Shown here: positions 1,433-38,013 of the stretch, piece after piece
Position numbering within the stretch: the stretch's first letter is position 1
Layout of the letters: each line of letters begins with the position of its first letter
Notes under the pieces: generated by a model
What the model saw: only the letters and a program-made list of their open reading frames with translations
Database searches by the model: none
Told to the model about the DNA's origin: nothing
Source: Faecalicatena orotica
Lineage (GTDB): Bacteria > Bacillota > Clostridia > Lachnospirales > Lachnospiraceae
Direction of reading: 5' to 3'
Length of the DNA stretch: 64,000 bases
NCBI RefSeq assembly: GCF_003149245.1
Contig: NZ_QGDL01000006.1
Coordinates: forward strand, 62,001 to 126,000
Position numbers and translations under genes: made by a program

Positions 1433-2908
1433 TCAGCTTAGAATGGTAATAAACTTTTCGTATGCCGCATTCCACTTTTCTTCGTTCTGCGGAATATATT
1501 CATATGTCGTTTCTGAATCTGCAATGATCCTTCTCGCTTCATTCACGTCTTTGATTTCCCCAAGTGACATGAACTGCACGGCTATGTTGCCCAATGCCGT
1601 CGCTTCCACAGGTCCCGCGATTACTTTGCGTCCGTTCGCTCCCGCTGTCATCTGGCAGAGAAGCTTACTCTGGATACCGCCGCCGATCATATGGATGGTC
1701 GGATAATGCTTTCCTGTACATGATTCAATCTGTTCCAGGGCATATCTGTACTTCAGTGCAAGGCTCTGGTTGATGCAGCATACGATCTCTCCGATCGTCT
1801 CCGGCACCCTCTGCCCTGTCCTTCTGCAGAACTCCCTGATACGTTCCGGTATATTGCCTGCCGGCACGAACTCCGGTGCATCCGGATCGATAAAGCTTAA
1901 GAACGGCTCTGCTTTCATAGCCATCTGCTCCAGCTCACCAAAGGAATATTCCTGTCCCTCACGGATCCATTGTCTCCGGCTCTCCTGTACAAGCCACAAA
2001 CCAATAATATTCTTCAGAAGGGTCGTTGTATTTCCATAACCACCTTCGTTACTTACGTTGCATTCCAGTGACTTTTCACCAATAACCGGAGCCTTCAGCT
2101 CTGTTCCGAATAAGCTCCATGTTCCGCAGCTGATAAACATAAAATCTTCTTCCTGTGTCGGAACCGCCACAACGGCACTCTGTGTATCATGGCTGGCCAC
2201 TGCAATAACCTTGGCCGGCTTTATTCCAAGTTCCTCACAGATATCATCGCTTAAGTTTCCTACCACCGTACCGCTCGGCACGATTTCAGGGAAGATCTCT
2301 TTTGGAATCTGAAGTGCATCCATTATTTTATCAGACCATACTTTGTTCCTTGCATCCATCAGCTGAGTCGTCGTAGACATAGTATATTCTGCCTTCTTCT
2401 CACCTGTCAGGAAATAGTTGAACAGATCCGGAGTCAGCAGAAGCTTGTCTGCACGTTCCAGAATCCACGGTCTCTTCTGCACAAGGGAATAAAGCTGGAA
2501 TACCGTATTGAAGTTCTCGAACTGATTTCCTGTCATATCATACAGCTCATCTTTCGGAATTGCCTTGAATACCTCTTCCTGCATTCCGAGTGTTCTGTCA
2601 TCCCTGTAATGCACGGCACTCTCAAGCAGTACCCCGTGTTCATCCAGAAGTCCGAAATCAACTCCCCATGTATCGATTCCGAGACTTTCAAAACCGCCTT
2701 TTTGCTTTGCCTTGATAATTCCCTGCTTAATCTCGAAAAATTGTCTCAGTGTGTCCCAGTACATAGTCTTGCCGATGATGACCGGATCATTGGAAAAGCG
2801 GTAAACTTCTTCCATATGTATCTTTCCGTCCTCCAGAGTTCCCAGAATCGCACGTCCGCTGGATGCCCCGAAGTCAAAAGCAAGTACCTGTTTCTTCTCA
2901 CTACTCAC
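1433..2908 (-). CDS. fucK: FGGY kinase, probable L-fuculokinase (RhaB family)
   Basis: Phosphorylates a 6-deoxyketose at C1. By sequence it belongs to the rhamnulokinase branch of FGGY kinases (LAFDFGASSGRAILG phosphate-binding start; DTWGVDFGLLD; GGGIQSKLLCQ near the C-terminus), but its position immediately before fucI makes L-fuculose the likely substrate; a true rhaB lies at 56368-57783. The start chosen is GTG at 2908, which has AAAGGAGG seven bases upstream. An ATG 30 bp further upstream would place this Shine-Dalgarno inside the gene and is unlikely. That gives 491 aa. The gene is divergent from the AraC regulator at 3030. Confidence 0.9.
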   Translation of the reverse strand: MSSEKKQVLAFDFGASSGRAILGTLEDGKIHMEEVYRFSNDPVIIGKTMYWDTLRQFFEIKQGIIKAKQKGGFESLGIDTWGVDFGLLDEHGVLLESAVHYRDDRTLGMQEEVFKAIPKDELYDMTGNQFENFNTVFQLYSLVQKRPWILERADKLLLTPDLFNYFLTGEKKAEYTMSTTTQLMDARNKVWSDKIMDALQIPKEIFPEIVPSGTVVGNLSDDICEELGIKPAKVIAVASHDTQSAVVAVPTQEEDFMFISCGTWSLFGTELKAPVIGEKSLECNVSNEGGYGNTTTLLKNIIGLWLVQESRRQWIREGQEYSFGELEQMAMKAEPFLSFIDPDAPEFVPAGNIPERIREFCRRTGQRVPETIGEIVCCINQSLALKYRYALEQIESCTGKHYPTIHMIGGGIQSKLLCQMTAGANGRKVIAGPVEATALGNIAVQFMSLGEIKDVNEARRIIADSETTYEYIPQNEEKWNAAYEKFITILS

Positions 2909-2962
2909 ACGTCTTCCTCCTTTCATAGCCACATTCATCTCGCCACTGATTTCATTTTATCA

Positions 2963-2992
2963 TTGTCCCGGAAAATATACTTGTGCTATAAT
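2963..2992 (+). promoter_or_regulatory. Probable promoter of the AraC regulator gene
   Basis: TTGTCC (2963-2968) and a perfect TATAAT (2987-2992) with 18 bp spacing, about 40 bp before the ATG at 3030, which also has an AAAGGAGAATT ribosome site. It lies in the short divergent region between fucK and the regulator. Confidence 0.65.
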
Positions 2993-3029
2993 AGTAAAAA
3001 ATATAACAATATTCACATAAAGGAGAATT

Positions 3030-3875
3030 ATGCAATATATCAATTACCGCGAAAGCTGGCAGCGGGGAACTGTCGACTTTCCCTTTGAATACCACCATAT
3101 CACCCCCACGCACCCACAATATATCATGGCACTGCACTGGCATGTGGAATTTGAAATCGTGCGGGTTCTCAAAGGAACCTTCCAACTATCCATAGATGAG
3201 CTGGAATACACCGTTGAGCAGGGTTCTGCCATCTTTATCCCTGCCGGTTCCGTGCACTCGGGACTTCCCCGTGACTGCACCTATGAATGTGTCGTCTTTG
3301 ATATGAATATGCTTATGAACAAAAACGATTCCTGCTGCAAGCTCATACGTAAAATCATTGACCACGAAGTGGAGCCAGCCTTTGTCTATCCTGAATCTCA
3401 TAACGATATCCACCAAACGGTCTGGTCACTGTTCGACGCGATTGCCTCTAAAAAGGATGGATACCAGCTTGTCGTCCTTGGAGCACTTTACCAGGTAATC
3501 GGCACTATTTTCGCGAAACAATACTACAACCCTGCACCAGCCCAGCCGCCGCGCAACCATAAACGTATCATACAACTAAAAACCGCACTTGAATTCATGG
3601 AATCTTCCTATAATAAGCAGATCACACTCGAAGAAATGGCAGGCAGTGTGGATATGTCCCCTAAATACTTCTGCCGTTTCTTCCATGAGATGACACACCG
3701 CACGCCGATAGACTACCTCAATTATTACCGCATAGAGCGGGCATGCTACCAGCTCATGACGACAGACCAGTCCATAACAGAGGTGGCATACAGTTCCGGA
3801 TTCAATGATTTAAGCTACTTTATCAAAACTTTTAAAAAATACAAAGGCACGACTCCGAAACAATATTTGAAATGA
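3030..3875 (+). CDS. AraC-family transcriptional regulator
   Basis: A 281-residue one-component regulator. Residues about 30-110 form an AraC-type cupin sensor (LHWHVEFEIVRVLKG; IFIPAGSVHSGLP). The last 100 residues are the double helix-turn-helix domain, with the signature FNDLSYFIKTFKKYKGTTPKQYL at the end. It is transcribed divergently from fucK-fucI, so a role as local activator of fucose genes responding to fucose or fuculose is a reasonable inference; the ligand cannot be read from sequence. Its stop lies two bases from the end of the convergent gene at 3878. Confidence 0.88.
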   Translation: MQYINYRESWQRGTVDFPFEYHHITPTHPQYIMALHWHVEFEIVRVLKGTFQLSIDELEYTVEQGSAIFIPAGSVHSGLPRDCTYECVVFDMNMLMNKNDSCCKLIRKIIDHEVEPAFVYPESHNDIHQTVWSLFDAIASKKDGYQLVVLGALYQVIGTIFAKQYYNPAPAQPPRNHKRIIQLKTALEFMESSYNKQITLEEMAGSVDMSPKYFCRFFHEMTHRTPIDYLNYYRIERACYQLMTTDQSITEVAYSSGFNDLSYFIKTFKKYKGTTPKQYLK

Positions 3876-3877
3876 AA

Positions 3878-4318
3878 TTAAAAAATTCCGAATATCTTTT
3901 CCCGGAAGGCTCCGTATAATGTTTCGTAATCCGTATAGTTTATGTCGCTCTCCTTGAAACTTTTCCCCCAGACCCTGCGGATCCCTTCCGCGATCACTTT
4001 GGGGTCCTCACATTCCATCCCCAGAATGGTAGGAAAGACATAGTAGATCATAAAGAAATTCAGGTCCACCTGGGTGCGGGCCTCAACCTTTCCTTTCTTA
4101 TTAGAAAGGTGCTCTTTTACTGCCTGCACCAGACATTCCCCGATCTCTTCCGCCGCCTTCTCTTTATCTTCGGCCTGCCCTACATACTCGGCCATTTCCC
4201 TGAAGAAGTGGCCGTTTTCCTCTTTAAACAGCTCCGTATTCTTCTCATAGCTCTTCTTTTTCAGATGGCCGATCATCTTTTCCTTATTGTTAAAAATCGT
4301 TTCTATACCCTGAAGCAT
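3878..4318 (-). CDS. Conserved hypothetical protein, 146 aa
   Basis: Not recognised. The protein is soluble, largely helical and charged, with a Lys/Glu-rich N-terminal half (residues 10-75) and a hydrophobic stretch around FFMIYYVFPTILGM (about residues 88-101). No signal peptide, catalytic motif or DNA-binding motif is evident. The start ATG has CAGGAGGAATCAT upstream, so it is very probably translated. It sits alone between the AraC regulator (tail to tail) and the ABC operon terminator at 4403-4436, so no function follows from context. Confidence 0.7.
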   Translation of the reverse strand: MLQGIETIFNNKEKMIGHLKKKSYEKNTELFKEENGHFFREMAEYVGQAEDKEKAAEEIGECLVQAVKEHLSNKKGKVEARTQVDLNFFMIYYVFPTILGMECEDPKVIAEGIRRVWGKSFKESDINYTDYETLYGAFREKIFGIF

Positions 4319-4402
4319 ATGATTCCTCCTGTGTCTTTCATTTTCATTCCGGTACTGGATTGCATGTACCTTATTGTCCTATATTATATCAGATCATATG
4401 TT

Positions 4403-4436
4403 AAAAAGGAACCGGGACACTCCCGGTTCCTTTTTT
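4403..4436 (-). terminator. Rho-independent terminator of the 4467-9289 ABC operon
   Basis: Near-perfect inverted repeat AAAAAGGAACCGGGA / TCCCGGTTCCTTTTT with a 3-nt loop. On the minus strand the hairpin is followed by a run of T, directly downstream of the sugar-binding protein gene. The flanking A and T runs would allow function in both directions. Confidence 0.85.
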
Positions 4437-4466
4437 AATTATTTGTGATTATCCGTTCTGTTATGA

Positions 4467-5609
4467 TTAGTCATACAGGTTTGGAGAGATCTGAGGATCA
4501 TCCATGTTTGTAGAGTCATACCAGTAACCCTCTGTCTCGATATCTTCTACTTCTTCACCGTTGCAGATCTTTGTCAGTGTTTCGATAGATAATTTACCCT
4601 GCATCAGAGGAGACTGTGTAACCGCACCAAGTAATGTTCCGTCAGCAACAGCTGCTTTGATTGTTGAACCAGCATCGAATCCAGCTGCGATGATGTTCTT
4701 CTCCGGGTCAGATCCTAATACATTTAAGTTCTGATTAGCTGTTAAAACGCCTTCTGCAGAAACCTGGTTAGAACCGAAGATAGCGATTGTATCGTCTTTG
4801 TTCATGATGTTAGAAGCTTCTGTAGCACACAGTTCAACTGTTGTCTGAGCCGGTACTGCGATCTCAATGATGATGTCAGCTGACTTCTCGTCGTTGTTTT
4901 TCTCAACTTTACCTACATAGTAGTCATTACCTACAACTGCAACTTTCTTTCCGTCTGCTTCTGCAAGTTCGATAAATTTGTTAACAAATCCCATACCACG
5001 CTCTGTGATGTTAGCTGATGTAGCGTCCTGATTAACTTCACCAACTCTGACTGGTTTGTCAGCTTTTGCAATTTTATCTTTTACTGATTCATAGATTTTC
5101 TCTGCTGCGATAGAACCTGCCTGACCATTGTTTGTAACTACTGTAGCGTAAACAGAGCCTTCCGGAGCATCCGGCACGCCTGAATCGAAGCAAACTACAG
5201 GGATTTTCTTATCCAGAGCTGTCTGCAGAGCCTCAAGCACTGAGTTCTGGTCACAAGCTGCAAGGGCGATACCGTCTGGTGATTTACCGATTGCACTTGT
5301 TAACATCTGTACCTGATCAGCAATATCAGACTCATTATTCGGTCCTGTTGTGTCAGCTGTTACACCTAACTCTTCCTCTGCCTGCTCAATTCCTTTAACG
5401 GCTGCCTGCCAGTATGATGACTGGAAGCTCTTTACAACAACTTCGAAGTGATAACCATTCTCTCCGCCTTTGTCACCCTCAGCATCAGAACCTTCATCCG
5501 CAGTCTTTGTGTCTTCCTTTGGTGCTTCATCTTTCTTGCTGCCACATCCTGCGATCAATCCTGCTGCCATGCATCCGCAAAGTAACACTGCCAAAACTTT
5601 CTTTTTCAT
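4467..5609 (-). CDS. Sugar ABC transporter substrate-binding lipoprotein
   Basis: Extracytoplasmic ligand-binding subunit of a CUT2-type (ribose/xylose-like) importer. Residues 1-21 are a lipoprotein signal ending in the lipobox LIAGC. An acidic Lys/Glu/Asp linker runs to about residue 50, followed by a type 1 periplasmic-binding fold (VVVKSFQSSYWQAAVKGIEQ; DGIALAACDQNSV; VVCFDSG; IAIFGSNQVSAEGV; IIAAGFDAG). AGGAGG lies 9 bp upstream. It is the last gene of a permease-ATPase-permease-SBP operon. The ligand is unknown; the fucose locus and the adjacent three-component sensor suggest a monosaccharide such as L-fucose. Confidence 0.93.
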   Translation of the reverse strand: MKKKVLAVLLCGCMAAGLIAGCGSKKDEAPKEDTKTADEGSDAEGDKGGENGYHFEVVVKSFQSSYWQAAVKGIEQAEEELGVTADTTGPNNESDIADQVQMLTSAIGKSPDGIALAACDQNSVLEALQTALDKKIPVVCFDSGVPDAPEGSVYATVVTNNGQAGSIAAEKIYESVKDKIAKADKPVRVGEVNQDATSANITERGMGFVNKFIELAEADGKKVAVVGNDYYVGKVEKNNDEKSADIIIEIAVPAQTTVELCATEASNIMNKDDTIAIFGSNQVSAEGVLTANQNLNVLGSDPEKNIIAAGFDAGSTIKAAVADGTLLGAVTQSPLMQGKLSIETLTKICNGEEVEDIETEGYWYDSTNMDDPQISPNLYD

Positions 5610-26945: not shown

Positions 26946-28028
26946 TTAGTATACGTCTTTCCATTCTCCAATGTTGTCTGGATCGAATTTGAATGGTGCG
27001 CCAAGAATAACTTCTGTTCCGCCGTCGTCAGCTTCTACTACTTCATAGTCTCCCATGTCTCCTGCTGTAAACTGGTCTCCTGCTGCGCCTGTGATTGTTC
27101 CGTCAACTAATGCGATTGATGTGTAAGCGCCAAGGCGTCCAACATCGATCGGATTCCACAGGTACATATACGGGCATGAATGTGCATCATCGTCGCCGAT
27201 ATATTCTGCCATCTCTGAAGGTAATCCAAGACCTGTCAGTTTTACAGAAGATTTCTCATCCTGAAGAACTTTTGCTGCTGCGTTAATACCAACTGTTGTA
27301 GGAGCACAGATCACTTTCAGGTCTGGGTATTTGGATAACAGAGCCTGTGTCTGGTCTGTAGATTTCTGTGGTTCGTCATCACCGTAAGCAACTTCTACGA
27401 GTTCCAGTTTGGAATATTTGTCGTCTTTCATGATCTCTTTCATAGAATCGATCCATGCATTCTGGTTTGCTGCCTGTGATGTAGCTGAAAGAATTGCCCA
27501 CTGTCCTTCTCCGCCTGTGATGTCAAGAACTGCATCCATCAGAGCCTGGCCGATTTCAGTAACACCAGCCTGGTTTACAAATGTCTGACGGCTGTCAGCG
27601 TTTGCTTTTGAGTCGAGGCAGGATACTTTGATGCCTGCATCCATAGCTTCTTCCAGTGCTGCCTGAAGAGCATTCTCATCATTTGCTGCAATTGCGATAG
27701 AGTCAACACCCTGAGAGATCAGTGACTGAATAACAGATACCTGTGCATCAGCTGTTGCAGCTTCCGGATGCTTCACGATGCATTCTCCGCCTTCAGCTTC
27801 GATTACTTCCTGGAATCCTTCTGCTTCTTTCTCATTGTAAGGATTTCCTGCTGCCTTTGTTACGATAGCATAAGTCTTCTTTCCGGAATCGCCAGCGTCA
27901 TCTTTCTGGGTATCCTCCGTCTTTGCATCTGCCTTGCTGTCTGAGCCCTCATCCTTTGAACCACAGCCAACGGCCAGAGTTCCCACCATAGCTACACATA
28001 ACAGTACGCTTAAAACTTTTTTCTTCAT
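26946..28028 (-). CDS. rhaS: Rhamnose ABC transporter substrate-binding lipoprotein
   Basis: Binding subunit of the second CUT2 transporter, 360 residues. Lipobox LAVGC at residues 18-22, acidic linker to about 48, then a type 1 binding fold of the RhaS/LsrB kind: ATADAQVSVIQSLISQGVDS, VICAPTTVGINAAAKVLQD, LTGLGLPSEMAEYIG and LWNPIDVGRLGAYTSIAL are typical of that subfamily. With RhaM directly downstream, L-rhamnose is the likely ligand. Order of the operon is ATPase, permease, permease, SBP, mutarotase. Confidence 0.9.
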   Translation of the reverse strand: MKKKVLSVLLCVAMVGTLAVGCGSKDEGSDSKADAKTEDTQKDDAGDSGKKTYAIVTKAAGNPYNEKEAEGFQEVIEAEGGECIVKHPEAATADAQVSVIQSLISQGVDSIAIAANDENALQAALEEAMDAGIKVSCLDSKANADSRQTFVNQAGVTEIGQALMDAVLDITGGEGQWAILSATSQAANQNAWIDSMKEIMKDDKYSKLELVEVAYGDDEPQKSTDQTQALLSKYPDLKVICAPTTVGINAAAKVLQDEKSSVKLTGLGLPSEMAEYIGDDDAHSCPYMYLWNPIDVGRLGAYTSIALVDGTITGAAGDQFTAGDMGDYEVVEADDGGTEVILGAPFKFDPDNIGEWKDVY

Positions 28029-30131: not shown

Positions 30132-31622
30132 CTATTTTGATTTTTCCATCGCAAGCTCAAGAATTCCTTCCTGAGTTGCTTCATTACGGTTCAGTTCACC
30201 AGTTACTTTTCCGCCGCACATCACTACGATTCTGTCACTCATTCCCAGGATTTCCGGCATCTCGGAGGATATCAGTATAATCGCATATCCCTGCTTCGCC
30301 AGATCTCCCATGATCTGATAGATCTCAGCCTTTGCGCCGACATCGACACCCTTCGTAGGTTCATCCATGATGACAACCTTCATTTCCTGGCCGAGTGCCT
30401 TGGCTACGACTACCTTCTGCTGGTTACCGCCTGAAAGGGAGGTTGCAGGATCAAAGATCGTAACCGCCTTTGTATCTACATCTTCCAGAAGTTTCTTTGC
30501 TATCTCGCGTTCTTTCTTCTCGTCATTAAATCCATGTTTTGCATGCTTGCCCATCGTCGGAAGCATTACGTTTCTTCCCAGTCCCCATGTCATGATCAGA
30601 CCTTCCTTCTGGCGGTCCTCAGGGAGAAGGATAATTCCCTTTTTCATGGCATCTGACGGCTGTTTGATATGTGTTTCCTTTCCTTCCAGAAAGACTTTTC
30701 CATCATCCGGCCTTGTAATCCCACAGACACTTTCCACGACTTCGGTACGTCCCGCACCTACCAGTCCTGTCAGTCCCACAATCTCGCCTGCATGGACATT
30801 GAAGGATACGTTCTTGAAATAACCAAGTCTTGTAAGTCCTTCCACCCTCAGCACTTCCGGCCCGATCTGGACCTCCGGTTTCGGGAACAGGTCCTTGATC
30901 TCACGGCCAACCATTGCCTTGATCAGGTCTGCATTCGTGATTCCGTTTACATCGTATGTACCGATATATTGTGAATCCCTAAATACCGTAACTGTACTTG
31001 CCAGCCTGTACATATCCTCGAAACGGTGTGAAATGAAAATAACAGATACACCGTCTTCTTTCAGCTTATCAACAATTCTATAAAGCTCCTCTGACTCATT
31101 CTTTGTCAGCGCCGCAGTAGGTTCATCCAGAATGATGATTCTCGCATGTGTGGAGAGTGCCTTCGCAATCTCAACCATCTGCTGCTGTGCCACGCTTAAG
31201 GCTCCCATTTCATCCGTCGGCTTAAAATCCGCATTCAGCTGTTTCAGAAGGTTTGCCGCCTCCTCGTTCATGCGTTTCCACTGAATGATACCTTTCTTAA
31301 TGATCTCATGGCCCATAAAGATATTCTCGGCCACCGTCAGGTCCGGATAAGATGTCGGATGCTGGTAAACCGCGGCAATCCCTGCCGCCTGTGCATCCCT
31401 TGGACCCTTGAAGTCTACCTTCTTGCCGTCCAGGAACATCTCGCCTTCTTCTGCTTTATGTACACCGGTTATTACTTTGATAAATGTGGACTTACCAGCT
31501 CCGTTTTCGCCCATCAGTGCATGGACTTCCCCTTTTTTAAGCTGGAAATGCACATTGTCCAATGCTTTTACACCAGGAAAAATCTTCGTAATACCTTTTA
31601 ATTCCAAAACGTATTCAGACAC
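30132..31622 (-). CDS. Rhamnose-type ABC transporter ATPase (two NBDs)
   Basis: A 496-residue double ATPase. N-terminal NBD: GENGAGKST, LSVAQQQMVEIAKAL, IIILDEPTAALT. C-terminal NBD: GLVGAGRTE, LSGGNQQKVVVAKAL, VVIMDEPTKGVD. The start is GTG at 31622, with GGAGGG seven bases upstream. It is the first gene of the rhamnose transporter operon and is divergent from the response regulator at 31852, which may control it. Confidence 0.93.
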   Translation of the reverse strand: MSEYVLELKGITKIFPGVKALDNVHFQLKKGEVHALMGENGAGKSTFIKVITGVHKAEEGEMFLDGKKVDFKGPRDAQAAGIAAVYQHPTSYPDLTVAENIFMGHEIIKKGIIQWKRMNEEAANLLKQLNADFKPTDEMGALSVAQQQMVEIAKALSTHARIIILDEPTAALTKNESEELYRIVDKLKEDGVSVIFISHRFEDMYRLASTVTVFRDSQYIGTYDVNGITNADLIKAMVGREIKDLFPKPEVQIGPEVLRVEGLTRLGYFKNVSFNVHAGEIVGLTGLVGAGRTEVVESVCGITRPDDGKVFLEGKETHIKQPSDAMKKGIILLPEDRQKEGLIMTWGLGRNVMLPTMGKHAKHGFNDEKKEREIAKKLLEDVDTKAVTIFDPATSLSGGNQQKVVVAKALGQEMKVVIMDEPTKGVDVGAKAEIYQIMGDLAKQGYAIILISSEMPEILGMSDRIVVMCGGKVTGELNRNEATQEGILELAMEKSK

Positions 31623-31851: not shown

Positions 31852-33420
31852 ATGAAGCTACTGATCGTCGATGATGAGGAACTGACGCGGGAAGGCCTGA
31901 TCGCTTCCCTTGACTGGGAATCCCTTGGGGTCGAACAGATTTTCCAGGCGGATGACGGCATCAACGCCCTGGCAATTGCCCGCCTGCAGAAACCGGACAT
32001 CATACTGAGCGATGTGCGTATGCCGCGCATGGACGGCATTCAGATGGTAGAACGTCTCGAATCAATTCTGCCCGATACAAGCGTGATCTTCATGAGCGGT
32101 TACTCTGATAAGGAATATTTAAAAGCCGCTATTAAGCTGAAGGCTGTTAATTATGTTGAAAAGCCTCTAAATCCTCTGGAGATCAAAGAGGCTGTACTCG
32201 AAGCGGCCCAGAGGCATGAGAAGAACCTCCGCACACGTCAGAGTGAAAACCTGTATTCTCTGGAAAAGGCTTCCCAGCTCGCACTGCTTCTGACGAAGCC
32301 CTATAAAGAAAATGAGGAAGAGATCACAGACCTTGCCGATGAACTTTCCCTCAGGCTGATGCCCGGGAGCAGCTTCACTACATACATCGTAAAGTTAAAG
32401 ACAAATGATCCCGACAGCACCCTGCTCCATGACATACGCAGTGATTTTACAGATTATCTGACCCATTACCATCTTCAGGTATTCTACATCCAGATTCATG
32501 CTGTTTACCACGTTTTCCATATAATGGGGAACAATCTGCCGTCCCCTGTTGCATTGTCGGCTGTGGAGAGTTACCTGAAGGACCAGTTCTCACAATTAGG
32601 AGACTTTTTCATCGGCCGCGGGGATACAGTCACAGGAATCAGTAAGACATACCATTCCTACACCAATGCGGTTGTTATGCTCCAAAGCAGTTTTTTCTTC
32701 TGTCCGGGCACACTCTTATCATCCGACAGCATGGAAAAATCTGCACCGGCCCCGTCGGCCTTCGAATTGACGGAAAGTGCCGTTCCATCTTTTAAGGAGG
32801 CGCTGCTGAATAAGGATCAGGATACCTGCACACAGCTGCTTAACAGCCTCTATGAGTGCTATTTTGAGAACCGGATTTTTCTGCCCAACCAGGTAAAGGA
32901 TATTTATTATAAGTTGTTTATATGTATCAATGACAGCCGTCAGGTGTTGAAGCTCAACTATGATTTAGCGGACGGCAATACCGAGGAAAGCATTATAGAA
33001 CATTTGGAAAAATGCTTCACGTATCAGGAACTCCACCAGATGCTTGTCTCTAAGACAGAATTATTTTTCCAGAATATTCATTCCTATGTACCGGAGGATT
33101 CCACGATCTTCATGATTAAGGACTATATTAGCAAGAATTATGCCAACGATGCGCTCTCTATCAAGGAAATCAGCGACCATGTATTTCTTTCCGCTTCCTA
33201 TGTCTGTACCTATTTCAAGAGCCAGACCGGACAAACGCTGAACCAGTACCTGACAGAGTACCGGATGGAGAAGGCCATGCAGCTCCTCGCTGACGCCCGT
33301 TACCAGATCACGGATATTTCCTCGAAAGTAGGCTACAGCAATGGGAATTATTTCAGCAAGAGTTTCAAGAAATTTACGGGGCTTACCCCGTCAAAATACA
33401 GAGAGAAGATGTTAGGATGA
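31852..33420 (+). CDS. AraC-type response regulator (YesN-like)
   Basis: 522 residues. REC domain at residues 1-120 (LLIVDDEELTREGLI; phospho-Asp in DIILSDVRMPRMDGIQ; VIFMSGYSDKEYL; YVEKPLNPLEI), a YesN-type middle region, and a complete AraC DNA-binding domain at about 420-520 (ISDHVFLSASYVCTYFKSQT; VGYSNGNYFSKSFKKFTGLT). AAAGGAGG precedes the ATG by 9-10 bp. Its gene overlaps the kinase gene by ATGA and is divergent from the rhamnose transporter, its probable target. Confidence 0.94.
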   Translation: MKLLIVDDEELTREGLIASLDWESLGVEQIFQADDGINALAIARLQKPDIILSDVRMPRMDGIQMVERLESILPDTSVIFMSGYSDKEYLKAAIKLKAVNYVEKPLNPLEIKEAVLEAAQRHEKNLRTRQSENLYSLEKASQLALLLTKPYKENEEEITDLADELSLRLMPGSSFTTYIVKLKTNDPDSTLLHDIRSDFTDYLTHYHLQVFYIQIHAVYHVFHIMGNNLPSPVALSAVESYLKDQFSQLGDFFIGRGDTVTGISKTYHSYTNAVVMLQSSFFFCPGTLLSSDSMEKSAPAPSAFELTESAVPSFKEALLNKDQDTCTQLLNSLYECYFENRIFLPNQVKDIYYKLFICINDSRQVLKLNYDLADGNTEESIIEHLEKCFTYQELHQMLVSKTELFFQNIHSYVPEDSTIFMIKDYISKNYANDALSIKEISDHVFLSASYVCTYFKSQTGQTLNQYLTEYRMEKAMQLLADARYQITDISSKVGYSNGNYFSKSFKKFTGLTPSKYREKMLG

Positions 33421-35447
33421 GATTAATCGCCCGGAAAATGAGCAGCATATATAAAAGTCTGAAGCTCCAGACCAAGTTTACGATTACACACCTTGTGATC
33501 GCTACCATCCCTATGATTGTACTGGCAATATTTTTTTACACAAAACTGTATGATATGATCATAGCCGATACAATCCGCACAGAGCAGGATGCCGCCACGC
33601 AGACTGCCCCTATGATTGAAGAGAGTGTCACAGAGATTCTGAATGCACTGGATAAGATTAAAAATGAAGATTTTTACCATCAGGTCGTAAGCGCGCACCG
33701 TACGGAGAGCCTGAATGAACTTGCCTCCTCGGATGCAGCCGATGCCTTCCTGGATACACTCGATGAGACTATCGACCTGGACCTGATTACTGATGTGAAA
33801 TTATATATCGATATACCAAGGACAGATCCCGTTTTCTCAAACTACCCGGTCTGTAAAACAGTCCTCCCCATTAATCAGGCATGGGGGACGTACTGGTACG
33901 GGATCTTCAACGGAAGTCCCTCGCTCCATGCACTGTTCTGCCCTTCCTTCTATCTTGGCTCTTACGAGATCAAGCATAACGGGGACATGGCATACATTGC
34001 AAAATCAACGATTATTTATGAGGGTGAAAGGACCCCCTGTTATCTTGCCATTTATTTTTCACAGAAGCACTTCGATACAATGCTTAAGGATAATCTTTCT
34101 TCCAGCAGCAATGTGGCATATATCATCAACGGGAGAGACAGCCTCGTTGCCACCTCGGATCAGGCGCTCTCCGGGACTTATCACTTCAGTTACGATGAGG
34201 TACAGGAACACTTTATGTCCTCTAACAACTTTATCCTGAAACGTGTTCTGGATGAAGACGTATACGCCGGTTTCTATAGTATACGGAATACGGACTGGTA
34301 CATGGTTGTCGCCATGCCGTCCCAGCCCATGATGAAGAAAAGTATCAATATAATGGCAGGCTTTATCCTTGTTTATGTGGCATGTATCCTAATTGCTTTC
34401 CTGATTGCGACGCTGCTCTCCCATTCCATCACTAACCGGCTTTCTGTCGTAATCAACCAGATGTCTAAAGCCCGGATCGGACCGCCTGTGGCCCTGCCTG
34501 CCGCGGACACGCATGATGAGATCGGGGACCTGATATCTACCTATAATTACATGACACGGGTCATCAACCAGCTGATGGAGGATCAGGCAAAAGCGGCGGA
34601 GGATCTCCGTATCGCAGAATTCCACTCCCTGCAGTCACAGATCAATCCACACTTCCTGTACAACACAATGGATATGATCAACTGGCTCTCTCAACAGGGG
34701 CGGTCCGCTGATGTCACATCTGCAATACAAAAGCTGTCACGTTTCTATAAGCTGACACTGAGCCGCAAAAAGAGCCTGAGCACAATAAACGATGAGATTG
34801 AACATGTATCTATCTATGTACAACTACAAAATATGCGTTTTCATGATACGATTGACCTCCTGATCGATATACCGGATAATCTTCTGGATTATTCCATACC
34901 AAAACTGACCTTCCAGCCTGTTATAGAAAACTGTATTCTCCACGGGATACTGGAAAAAGAGTCGAAACAGGGGACCATCGTTCTGACAGGGTGGCTTGAT
35001 GAGGATGATATCGTAATTCTGATATCCGACGACGGAATTGGCATGCCGGAAGAAAAGCTGGAGAATATTTTAACAGGAAACGGTTCATCCGGCGGCAAGG
35101 GCTCCAACATCGCCGTATATAACACGCACCGTCGCCTACAGTTAATGTACGGGCCGGAATATGGCCTGAAGTACTCCAGCACCTACGGTGCAGGCACTGA
35201 TGTCGAGATCCGCATCCCGGCGCGCTATCCCGAAGATGGACTGATCGATGCTTCGCCGGACGGTACAGCCGAAGACCCCCTGAAGGAAAGCCACTTTATC
35301 CAGGCACTGACGCTGCTCACGAGGCCGGAAATCAATATTTATGAGATTGCAAAAGAATGCGGGTATGACAATCCGCAGCTGTTTTTTACGGAATTCAGAG
35401 AACGGTTCGGGTGCTCGCCTGAGGAATACCGCAGGCAGGTGCTGTAA
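33417..35447 (+). CDS. Sensor histidine kinase with C-terminal half AraC domain
   Basis: A 676-residue YesM-type kinase. TM1 at about 22-43, an extracellular sensing region to about 305, TM2 at about 308-332, HAMP, His_kinase motif SQINPHFLYNTMDMINWLSQ, and HATPase (LTFQPVIENCILHGIL; ILISDDGIGMPEE; RRLQLMYGPEYGLKY). After an acidic linker, residues about 630-676 read ALTLLTRPEINIYEIAKECG then YDNPQLFFTEFRERFGCSPE and EYRRQ. This is the second helix-turn-helix of an AraC domain, without the first. The frame is continuous with no stop or frameshift. A DNA-binding half-domain on a membrane kinase is unusual. Co-translated with the response regulator by a 4-bp overlap. Confidence 0.92.
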   Translation: MRLIARKMSSIYKSLKLQTKFTITHLVIATIPMIVLAIFFYTKLYDMIIADTIRTEQDAATQTAPMIEESVTEILNALDKIKNEDFYHQVVSAHRTESLNELASSDAADAFLDTLDETIDLDLITDVKLYIDIPRTDPVFSNYPVCKTVLPINQAWGTYWYGIFNGSPSLHALFCPSFYLGSYEIKHNGDMAYIAKSTIIYEGERTPCYLAIYFSQKHFDTMLKDNLSSSSNVAYIINGRDSLVATSDQALSGTYHFSYDEVQEHFMSSNNFILKRVLDEDVYAGFYSIRNTDWYMVVAMPSQPMMKKSINIMAGFILVYVACILIAFLIATLLSHSITNRLSVVINQMSKARIGPPVALPAADTHDEIGDLISTYNYMTRVINQLMEDQAKAAEDLRIAEFHSLQSQINPHFLYNTMDMINWLSQQGRSADVTSAIQKLSRFYKLTLSRKKSLSTINDEIEHVSIYVQLQNMRFHDTIDLLIDIPDNLLDYSIPKLTFQPVIENCILHGILEKESKQGTIVLTGWLDEDDIVILISDDGIGMPEEKLENILTGNGSSGGKGSNIAVYNTHRRLQLMYGPEYGLKYSSTYGAGTDVEIRIPARYPEDGLIDASPDGTAEDPLKESHFIQALTLLTRPEINIYEIAKECGYDNPQLFFTEFRERFGCSPEEYRRQVL

Positions 35448-35456
35448 TATATTCTG

Positions 35457-35508
35457 AAAAACTGCCGCAGGAAGCTTAACGTATAACAGGCTTCCTGCGG
35501 CAGTTTTT
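35457..35508. terminator. Bidirectional terminator between kinase and isomerase-like gene
   Basis: Perfect 19-bp arms, each containing ACTGCCGCAGGAAGC or its complement, around a 14-nt loop, with A/T runs at both ends. It lies 9 bp after both convergent coding regions. Confidence 0.9.
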
Positions 35509-35516
35509 CCTGTGAC

Positions 35517-37134: not shown

Positions 37135-38013
37135 ATGAAGACAAAAACAGAACTTTTAGAGCGCGGTTCCCATACATGGAGTGAAGACTCCGTCCGGCTG
37201 ATCCTAACTCCCGGTACAACCGCCAAAACAACGTATTTTTATACACAGGAGATTGGTTATTTCAAGACCTGCCACCCATACTTTTCAGAACGTCAGAATC
37301 TGGACTCGTTCCTTATCGTATATACCGTTTCCGGCAAAGGGTTTCTGGAATATGAAGGAAATACATACACGCTGAAAAAGGGGCAGTGCTTCTACATTAA
37401 CTGCGAGGAGCACCACATGTACTGGACCGGTGAGGACGAGGACTGGGAGATCCTCTGGATTCATTTTAACGGAAACAGTGCTCTCGGGTATTATAAAGAA
37501 TTTACAAGAAATGGGTTCAGGATACTGGACTTAAGGGATGACTCCCTTATAGACCGCACTCTCCGGCAAATGATCTCTCTGCACAAAAAGAAAAACCTGA
37601 CTACGGAGATTGTAACTTCTAATTTAATCAACGGGATTCTTACGGAATTACTTGTTCTGACCGCAACCAACAATGCAGACACATTCCTCATCCCTGATTA
37701 TATAAAAGAAATCGCAAGGGAGATTGATAAGAATTTCAAAACGGACCTGTCGCTGAAATATTTTGAGGAGATGACACACAGAAGCCGCTATCATATCCTG
37801 AAGGAATTTAAAAAATATATCGGAGTTACGATTAACGAATACCTGATTACTGCCAGAATCACCTATGCAAAAGAGCTTCTGAAATATTCAGAGCTTCCGG
37901 TCGGTGAAATCGCCTTTGAGTGCGGAATGAATAATGTGACGCATTTTATCAATCTTTTTAAGGCGAGGGAAGGACAGACGCCTCTCGTTTACCGGAAAGC
38001 CTGGAGAAGTTAA
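37135..38013 (+). CDS. AraC-family transcriptional regulator
   Basis: A 292-residue one-component regulator with an N-terminal cupin (DSFLIVYTVSGKGFLEYEG; GQCFYINCEEHHMYW; WEILWIHFNG) and C-terminal double helix-turn-helix (MTHRSRYHILKEFKKYIGVT; ECGMNNVTHFINLFKAREGQ). It is divergent from the arabinose-isomerase-like gene with 115 bp between, the usual arrangement for local control. It ends at the shared terminator at 38017. Confidence 0.88.
   Translation: MKTKTELLERGSHTWSEDSVRLILTPGTTAKTTYFYTQEIGYFKTCHPYFSERQNLDSFLIVYTVSGKGFLEYEGNTYTLKKGQCFYINCEEHHMYWTGEDEDWEILWIHFNGNSALGYYKEFTRNGFRILDLRDDSLIDRTLRQMISLHKKKNLTTEIVTSNLINGILTELLVLTATNNADTFLIPDYIKEIAREIDKNFKTDLSLKYFEEMTHRSRYHILKEFKKYIGVTINEYLITARITYAKELLKYSELPVGEIAFECGMNNVTHFINLFKAREGQTPLVYRKAWRS

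Follow-up and report, generated by a model that had tools for sequence, protein, structure and literature searches.

Sensor kinases of the YesM/LytS type normally end after the HATPase_c domain, and the DNA-binding domain of the Bacteroides hybrid two-component systems (HTCS) is AraC-type. YesM/LytS-type kinases that have AraC-type response regulators, such as GanS of Geobacillus, share the His_kinase and HATPase_c core of the kinase described here, which differs from them by carrying the second helix-turn-helix subdomain (HTH2) of an AraC DNA-binding domain after HATPase_c. A YesM-type kinase with such an AraC tail was not found in the titles and abstract openings of the open-licence papers listed by searches aimed at a kinase with an AraC part. 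In the HTCS, as set out in PMC11253607, kinase, receiver and DNA-binding domain lie in one chain and contact with the receiver holds the DNA-binding domain down; the likeness to our kinase lies in a membrane kinase and an AraC-type module in one chain, and in carbohydrate regulation. The architecture reported here is nevertheless distinct from that of the Bacteroides hybrids: the three-part HTCS chain is not found in our kinase, which has no receiver, has a separate regulator, carries half an AraC domain and has lost recognition residues, and a longer form found among its relatives has a cupin in place of the HTCS receiver. ChiS, according to PMC8092284, is a kinase that binds DNA via its C-terminal domain, for which five Arg/Lys residues are needed. 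It and other transmembrane transcriptional regulators share with our kinase a C-terminal HTH-type module on a kinase and a link to a sugar operon (PMC8092284), but ChiS uses positive residues for DNA binding, whereas the tail studied here is acidic and AraC-derived.

The AraC/XylS cupin regulators, such as ToxT, RhaR and AraC, are a further point of comparison. The longer form of our kinase contains a full regulator of this kind, with a cupin and two HTHs, and differs in being fused to a kinase and in having changed the HTH1 Tyr and HTH2 Arg positions; the kinase under study retains HTH2 only. One kinase gene at one locus comes without a tail, as a full transcription-factor fusion, or with a constrained HTH2-only tail devoid of DNA-reading residues, and whether a DNA-binding fold has been reused in signalling can be tested directly in culturable gut bacteria; short-tailed examples are Muricomes intestini DSM 29489 and Faecalicatena contorta.

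The window kinase and its locus

The window, a 64,000-nucleotide stretch of DNA from Faecalicatena orotica, contains one open frame (33417..35447, + strand) that encodes a YesM/LytS-type membrane sensor kinase of 676 aa with a C-terminal half-AraC tail, as delineated by Pfam and a structure model. Its ATG overlaps, as ATGA, the stop of an AraC-type response regulator (31852..33420, + strand, 522 aa). The order of domains that marks the YesM/LytS type is present, with His_kinase (PF06580) at residues 400-478 (34614..34850, + strand; 2.1e-23) followed by a complete HATPase_c domain at residues 500-602 (34914..35222, + strand; 1.9e-10), while the usual chain end after HATPase_c, which is not a strict criterion, is absent. 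Pfam gave no Response_reg match in the kinase; the separate regulator has one (3.4e-25), followed by a middle region and a complete AraC domain.

The earlier note had read the sequence as a half-AraC domain placed after a complete HATPase domain, lacking the first HTH, next to a co-translated regulator with a full AraC domain of its own, and the HMM search bore out these domain assignments. Residues 624-674 of the kinase matched positions 30-80 of the 80-position HTH_18 profile (2.3e-10, 41 bits, cut-off 33.6), and the regulator matched positions 2-79 (3.6e-22). Since the match in the kinase covers positions 30-80 only, what stands at the C-terminus is the latter half of an AraC DNA-binding domain. 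HTH1 is absent, the match starting only at profile position 30, and the two HTH subdomains that characterize the AraC/XylS family are not both found in this chain. HTH_AraC matched residues 640-673 of the full kinase at 25.9 bits, slightly below its cut-off of 26.6; when the tail was searched alone, HTH_AraC rose to 30.1 bits and HTH_18 gave 9.9e-12. A chance match of the tail is rejected by the HTH_18 scores. The best solved-structure sequence match of the tail (1e-6) was the response-regulator chain of 6swi, which we take to be GanP, the partner of GanS.

Between HATPase_c and HTH2 lies a linker of residues 604-622 (35226..35282, + strand), nearly constant in length within the clade of this kinase, fast-evolving in sequence and of low predicted order. 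HTH2 itself spans residues 623-676 (35283..35444, + strand) and is acidic; its former recognition helix, PQLFFTEFRERF, occupies residues 653-664 (35373..35408, + strand) and has Thr658 at the canonical Arg/Lys position, followed by Glu659. Directly 3' of the kinase stop, between convergent genes, is a strong terminator-like hairpin (35456..35509, no strand assigned; -38.5 kcal/mol, z -9.8).

The kinase locus is a carbohydrate locus. Divergent from the regulator are genes for an ABC ATPase (30132-31622) and a periplasmic binding protein (26946-28028) along with two permease-like frames, and beyond these lie a class II aldolase, a frame resembling LacI and a sugar kinase of the FGGY family; the labels LacI and permease come from reading of the sequence rather than from family search. 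Past the hairpin are a gene that looks like an isomerase and matches AraA_central, a free cupin-AraC regulator at 37135-38013, and genes for an iron alcohol dehydrogenase and a DeoR regulator. This free regulator is the second of its kind, and similar frames occur in two related loci (L031 and L034).

Three C-terminal forms among relatives

The tailed architecture did not prove widespread in the genomes sampled. In the 5.7-Mb genome that contains the window, 34 of the 35 His_kinase-family matches lie in frames of at most 652 aa, and the window kinase alone is longer, which led us to reject the idea of a widespread architecture. The AraC profile, over 30 of 35 matches in the same genome, gave eight frames of at least 200 aa, one of them the window kinase; the other seven differ in length from the His_kinase frames. 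A sample across the order, in which 146 genomes had the His_kinase family and only best matches were taken, yielded two frames above 700 aa among the matches listed, one of them without an AraC-profile match. The second of these frames (L231, genome G554, 1791-4931, 1047 aa) is a YesM-type kinase that continues directly into part of a receiver and a complete AraC domain, and it looks like an independent fusion of kinase and regulator.

A contig scan matched 102 stretches, of which 97 were relatives, and the best 80 were used. In all, 104 kinase frames of at least 40% identity and near full length were kept, and these fall into three forms: 79 without a tail (about 605 aa), 15 with a long tail (~330 aa) and 10 with a short tail (~70 aa, HTH2 only). 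After removal of 11 identical cores, the 93 rows of the kinase-core tree comprise 72 tailless, 14 long and 7 short forms; besides the identical-core frames, the tree leaves out L091, the frame of which is broken. In the residue-count and similarity comparisons L111 and L091 were treated as long fusions, and L176 is absent from both the tree and the residue counts.

The search for further fusions of HATPase to half an AraC domain, which the earlier note had proposed, found a conserved in-frame tail in six distinct kinases of what we call the window clade (the window kinase and L031-L035) and in one Blautia kinase (L049). Tails in the window clade are 72-73 residues long, and no stop or frameshift was found in the tail of any of its six distinct kinases. 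The note had also named tailless or degenerate close relatives, or an assembly error, as grounds for abandoning its claim. No member of the window clade showed loss or decay of the tail, which was observed only in kinases outside it, and an assembly error can be dismissed because six distinct kinases of this clade have the tail, named strains included (L032 and L035). In a second genome collection the window clade covers three genera (group codes g1, g63 and g238), and kinases with identical core or identical tail were found there (L141-L143, L168, L198 and L199); these probably come from the same genomes as in the first collection and so are not independent confirmation.

The three long forms that were scanned (L072, L051 and L096) contain AraC_binding/Cupin_2 as well as a complete HTH_18, and therefore have the two HTH subdomains of the AraC/XylS family. 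The long extension is modelled as a cupin plus a seven-helix AraC domain, and structure comparison matched it to the whole AraC regulators ToxT and Rns and to the cupin domains of RhaR and AraC. In all, 16 distinct kinases bear a complete or near-complete C-terminal cupin-AraC regulator (L051, L058, L062-L064, L068, L069, L072, L073, L075-L077, L080, L091, L096 and L176); among them, L058 lacks most of HTH1 and L077 is cut by a contig end. These long fusions would have two possible inputs, the outside sensor and the inner cupin, and their HTHs are altered but constrained. Five free-standing regulators show 38-48% identity to the long extension. One of them is in the window's own genome (L113, contig 25; 41% identity) and is followed by a frame that reads as sugar-kinase-like from its sequence.

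Within the genus of genome G287, assigned to Blautia from identical kinases, the kinase is present in 35 of 64 genomes at E<=1e-150. Thirty of these 35 were inspected, and they comprise 10 long forms, 1 short form, 1 decayed relic and 18 tailless forms; the short form (L168) is the L049 kinase, and the relic (L169) has the same tail as L082.

Origin of the short tail

The kinase-core tree was built by a quick method with no root inferred. In its 93 rows all long and short forms fall inside one 73-row group, and the six window-clade kinases form a single clade (SH-aLRT 99). L049 sits by itself within Blautia, and long forms are interspersed with tailless ones. Free parsimony requires 12 changes for the three states, and a single gain over the whole tree would need 20 losses. 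Across the 14 long forms, identity of the core and identity of the extension are correlated (Spearman 0.82), which argues that kinase and extension have for the most part moved together.

Trimming and loss of the extension do occur. The tail of L049 opens as the long extension does (KEYESPF) and then passes straight to its HTH2, which shows that the HTH2-only form of this Blautia kinase arose by an in-frame internal deletion of the long form. Relics of the extension point the same way: L082, the tree neighbour of L049, ends in mere scraps of tail with a broken HTH2, and in L061 a piece of the extension's cupin half lies, in a shifted frame, just past the kinase stop.

For the window clade itself, trimming of a long fusion is the likelier origin, because the clade shares both its fusion point and its altered recognition helix with the long forms. 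The competing account, which we regard as somewhat unlikely, is a separate small fusion, in which a free regulator of the same subfamily contributed just its HTH2 to the window clade. The linker in this clade, unlike that of L049, has no recognisable start of the long extension, and the 24-row tree group that holds the clade includes 18 tailless rows and no long form. Nor does similarity separate the two accounts: the mean scores of the window-clade HTH2 are 108.8-120.6 against the same-subfamily free regulators and 112.1-120.9 against the HTH2 of long forms, an equality that may be counted for a separate fusion. Such an origin would, however, require that this AraC subfamily was fused twice to one kinase at an identical point and that the recognition Arg/Lys was lost a second time, whereas a tailed ancestor of the 24-row group would need only 4 losses there. 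A tree of HTH2 alone (52 columns) lacks resolution and does not unite the fused forms as one clade. This choice bears on origin only, and a separate fusion is compatible with the role proposed below. Local duplication of the regulator's own HTH2 was rejected; the HTH2 of the response regulators (RRs) is much less tail-like than that of this AraC subfamily, the mean scores of the window-clade HTH2 against RR and other free AraC domains being 67-80.

Possible role of the tail

On balance we think it probable that the window-clade tail is a former DNA-binding module, most likely a trimmed long fusion, that is folded and acidic and now acts in protein contact or regulation. The kinase belongs to a group of Lachnospiraceae in which YesM-type kinases have acquired a complete AraC-type cupin regulator at the C-terminus. 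Under this reading, the window clade would have kept only the HTH2 of this cupin-AraC subfamily, on a flexible tether; and the HTH2, having lost its DNA-reading residues, would serve in protein contact. It may tune the output of the kinase, or the dealings of the kinase with its cognate AraC-type response regulator, with the kinase itself, the twin subunit and the cognate regulator as candidate contact surfaces. We infer protein contact because the module is folded, acidic, constrained and flexibly tethered, and because its key DNA-reading residue is replaced. The earlier suggestion of a dimerisation surface for the regulator's AraC domain survives in so far as a role in protein contact does; contact with that particular domain gains no support from the weak test of regulator charge given below.

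The AlphaFold model of the kinase (pTM 0.69) resolves the tail as four helices (621-634, 641-647, 653-664 and 668-675) in a block with pLDDT mostly 72-82, attached through a disordered linker (pLDDT about 45), and the best Foldseek matches of the model were to the GanS kinase domain (6swj and 6swk). A narrower version of the protein-contact reading, which we hold only tentatively and whose probability overlaps with that of the general reading as a special case of it, is that HTH2 packs against the HATPase domain or the dimerisation helices of its own chain, or pairs with the tail of the twin subunit, and so sets the kinase/phosphatase balance without the response regulator. Tethering at the HATPase end and the nearly constant linker length (tails of 72-73 residues) are consistent with this, as is the inhibition of the AraC domain in Bacteroides hybrids by contacts with the neighbouring receiver, described in PMC11253607. 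The model, with its poorly ordered linker and its overall pTM, gives no readable firm packing of the tail and in this respect speaks against it.

Alternatively, the acidic tail could dock as a decoy on the basic DNA-binding face of the regulator's AraC domain and block DNA until signalling releases it. If true, a DNA-binding domain would have been recycled as a stand-in for DNA within a two-component system, but we consider this improbable. Regulators that accompany short-tailed kinases look more basic, but five of the six belong to one clade, and in the comparison of L049 with L082, the one independent contrast, regulator charge was not coupled to tail state, L049 being equal to the tail-broken L082. 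The apparent coupling was set aside for these two reasons.

For HTH2, pN/pS over three sister pairs within the window clade was 0.106 (bootstrap 0.055-0.160); HATPase had 0.103, the sensor 0.171 and the linker 0.321. Over all 15 window-clade pairs, in which synonymous sites are near saturation, mean identity was 80% in HTH2 and 28% in the linker. In four sister pairs of long forms, pN/pS was 0.120 for the cupin region, 0.218 for HTH1 and 0.159 for HTH2. Judged from these substitution patterns, the HTH2 tail is under purifying selection and constrained like a working domain. With a constraint equal to that of the HATPase domain, it is no debris. A relaxed, harmless leftover of a kinase-AraC fusion in the course of being lost is accordingly a very doubtful reading: decay is visible in L061 and L082 and 72 of the 93 tree rows are tailless, but in the window clade the HTH2 ratio stands at a third of that of the adjoining linker, identity is retained across the clade and the tail frame is intact in 6/6 distinct kinases. 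Of the earlier idea of a fused remnant, the part that holds is membership in a family of kinase-AraC fusions, some of them complete; the constraint on the tail speaks against a mere remnant.

The DNA-reading face of the fused forms is altered. At the recognition position, Arg/Lys is found in 60/60 RRs, 65/90 other free AraC proteins and 5/5 free members of the same subfamily, as against 2/15 fused long and 0/7 fused short forms, a loss in 20/22 fused forms (Fisher p = 2.6e-4 for fused versus same-subfamily free forms, with counts and test uncorrected for relatedness). The basic residue, frequent but not universal in AraC/XylS recognition helices as the 65/90 indicates, is likewise absent from the window kinase. 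The mean charge of the recognition helix falls from +2.3 in RRs and +1.6 in both other free and same-subfamily free proteins to -0.5 in long and -1.0 in short forms. The mean net charge of HTH2 is +4.1 in RRs, +3.8 in other free proteins, -0.2 in same-subfamily free proteins, -1.7 in long and -4.0 in short forms; as the same-subfamily free proteins average -0.2, net charge alone cannot exclude DNA binding. HTH1 is changed as well, its tyrosine being present in 62/62 RRs and 5/5 same-subfamily free proteins but in 1/14 long forms with a letter at that position, 11 of which have Gln.

Loss of the recognition-helix base together with inversion of charge thus disfavours the membrane-tethered DNA contact raised in the earlier note, which on sequence grounds appears unlikely. 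The corresponding scheme, modelled on ChiS or the Bacteroides HTCS, in which the two HTH2 modules of a kinase dimer touch DNA with one HTH per chain, is the least probable of those considered here: the HTH2 helices are intact in the predicted model, the HTH_18 score exceeds the gathering cut-off, purifying selection is strong and DNA-binding membrane kinases exist (PMC8092284 and PMC11253607), but the recognition Arg/Lys is missing in 7/7 short and 13/15 long forms, the recognition helix and the short-form tail as a whole are acidic, HTH1 is missing, and ChiS depends on its five Arg/Lys residues (PMC8092284). The recognition face is not wholly without bases, since a Lys/Arg one position after the helix Phe is retained in 5/7 short forms. 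The altered helix is itself conserved among the short forms, with Q654 in 6/7, F656 in 7/7, F657 in 7/7, E659 in 7/7 and E662 in 6/7.
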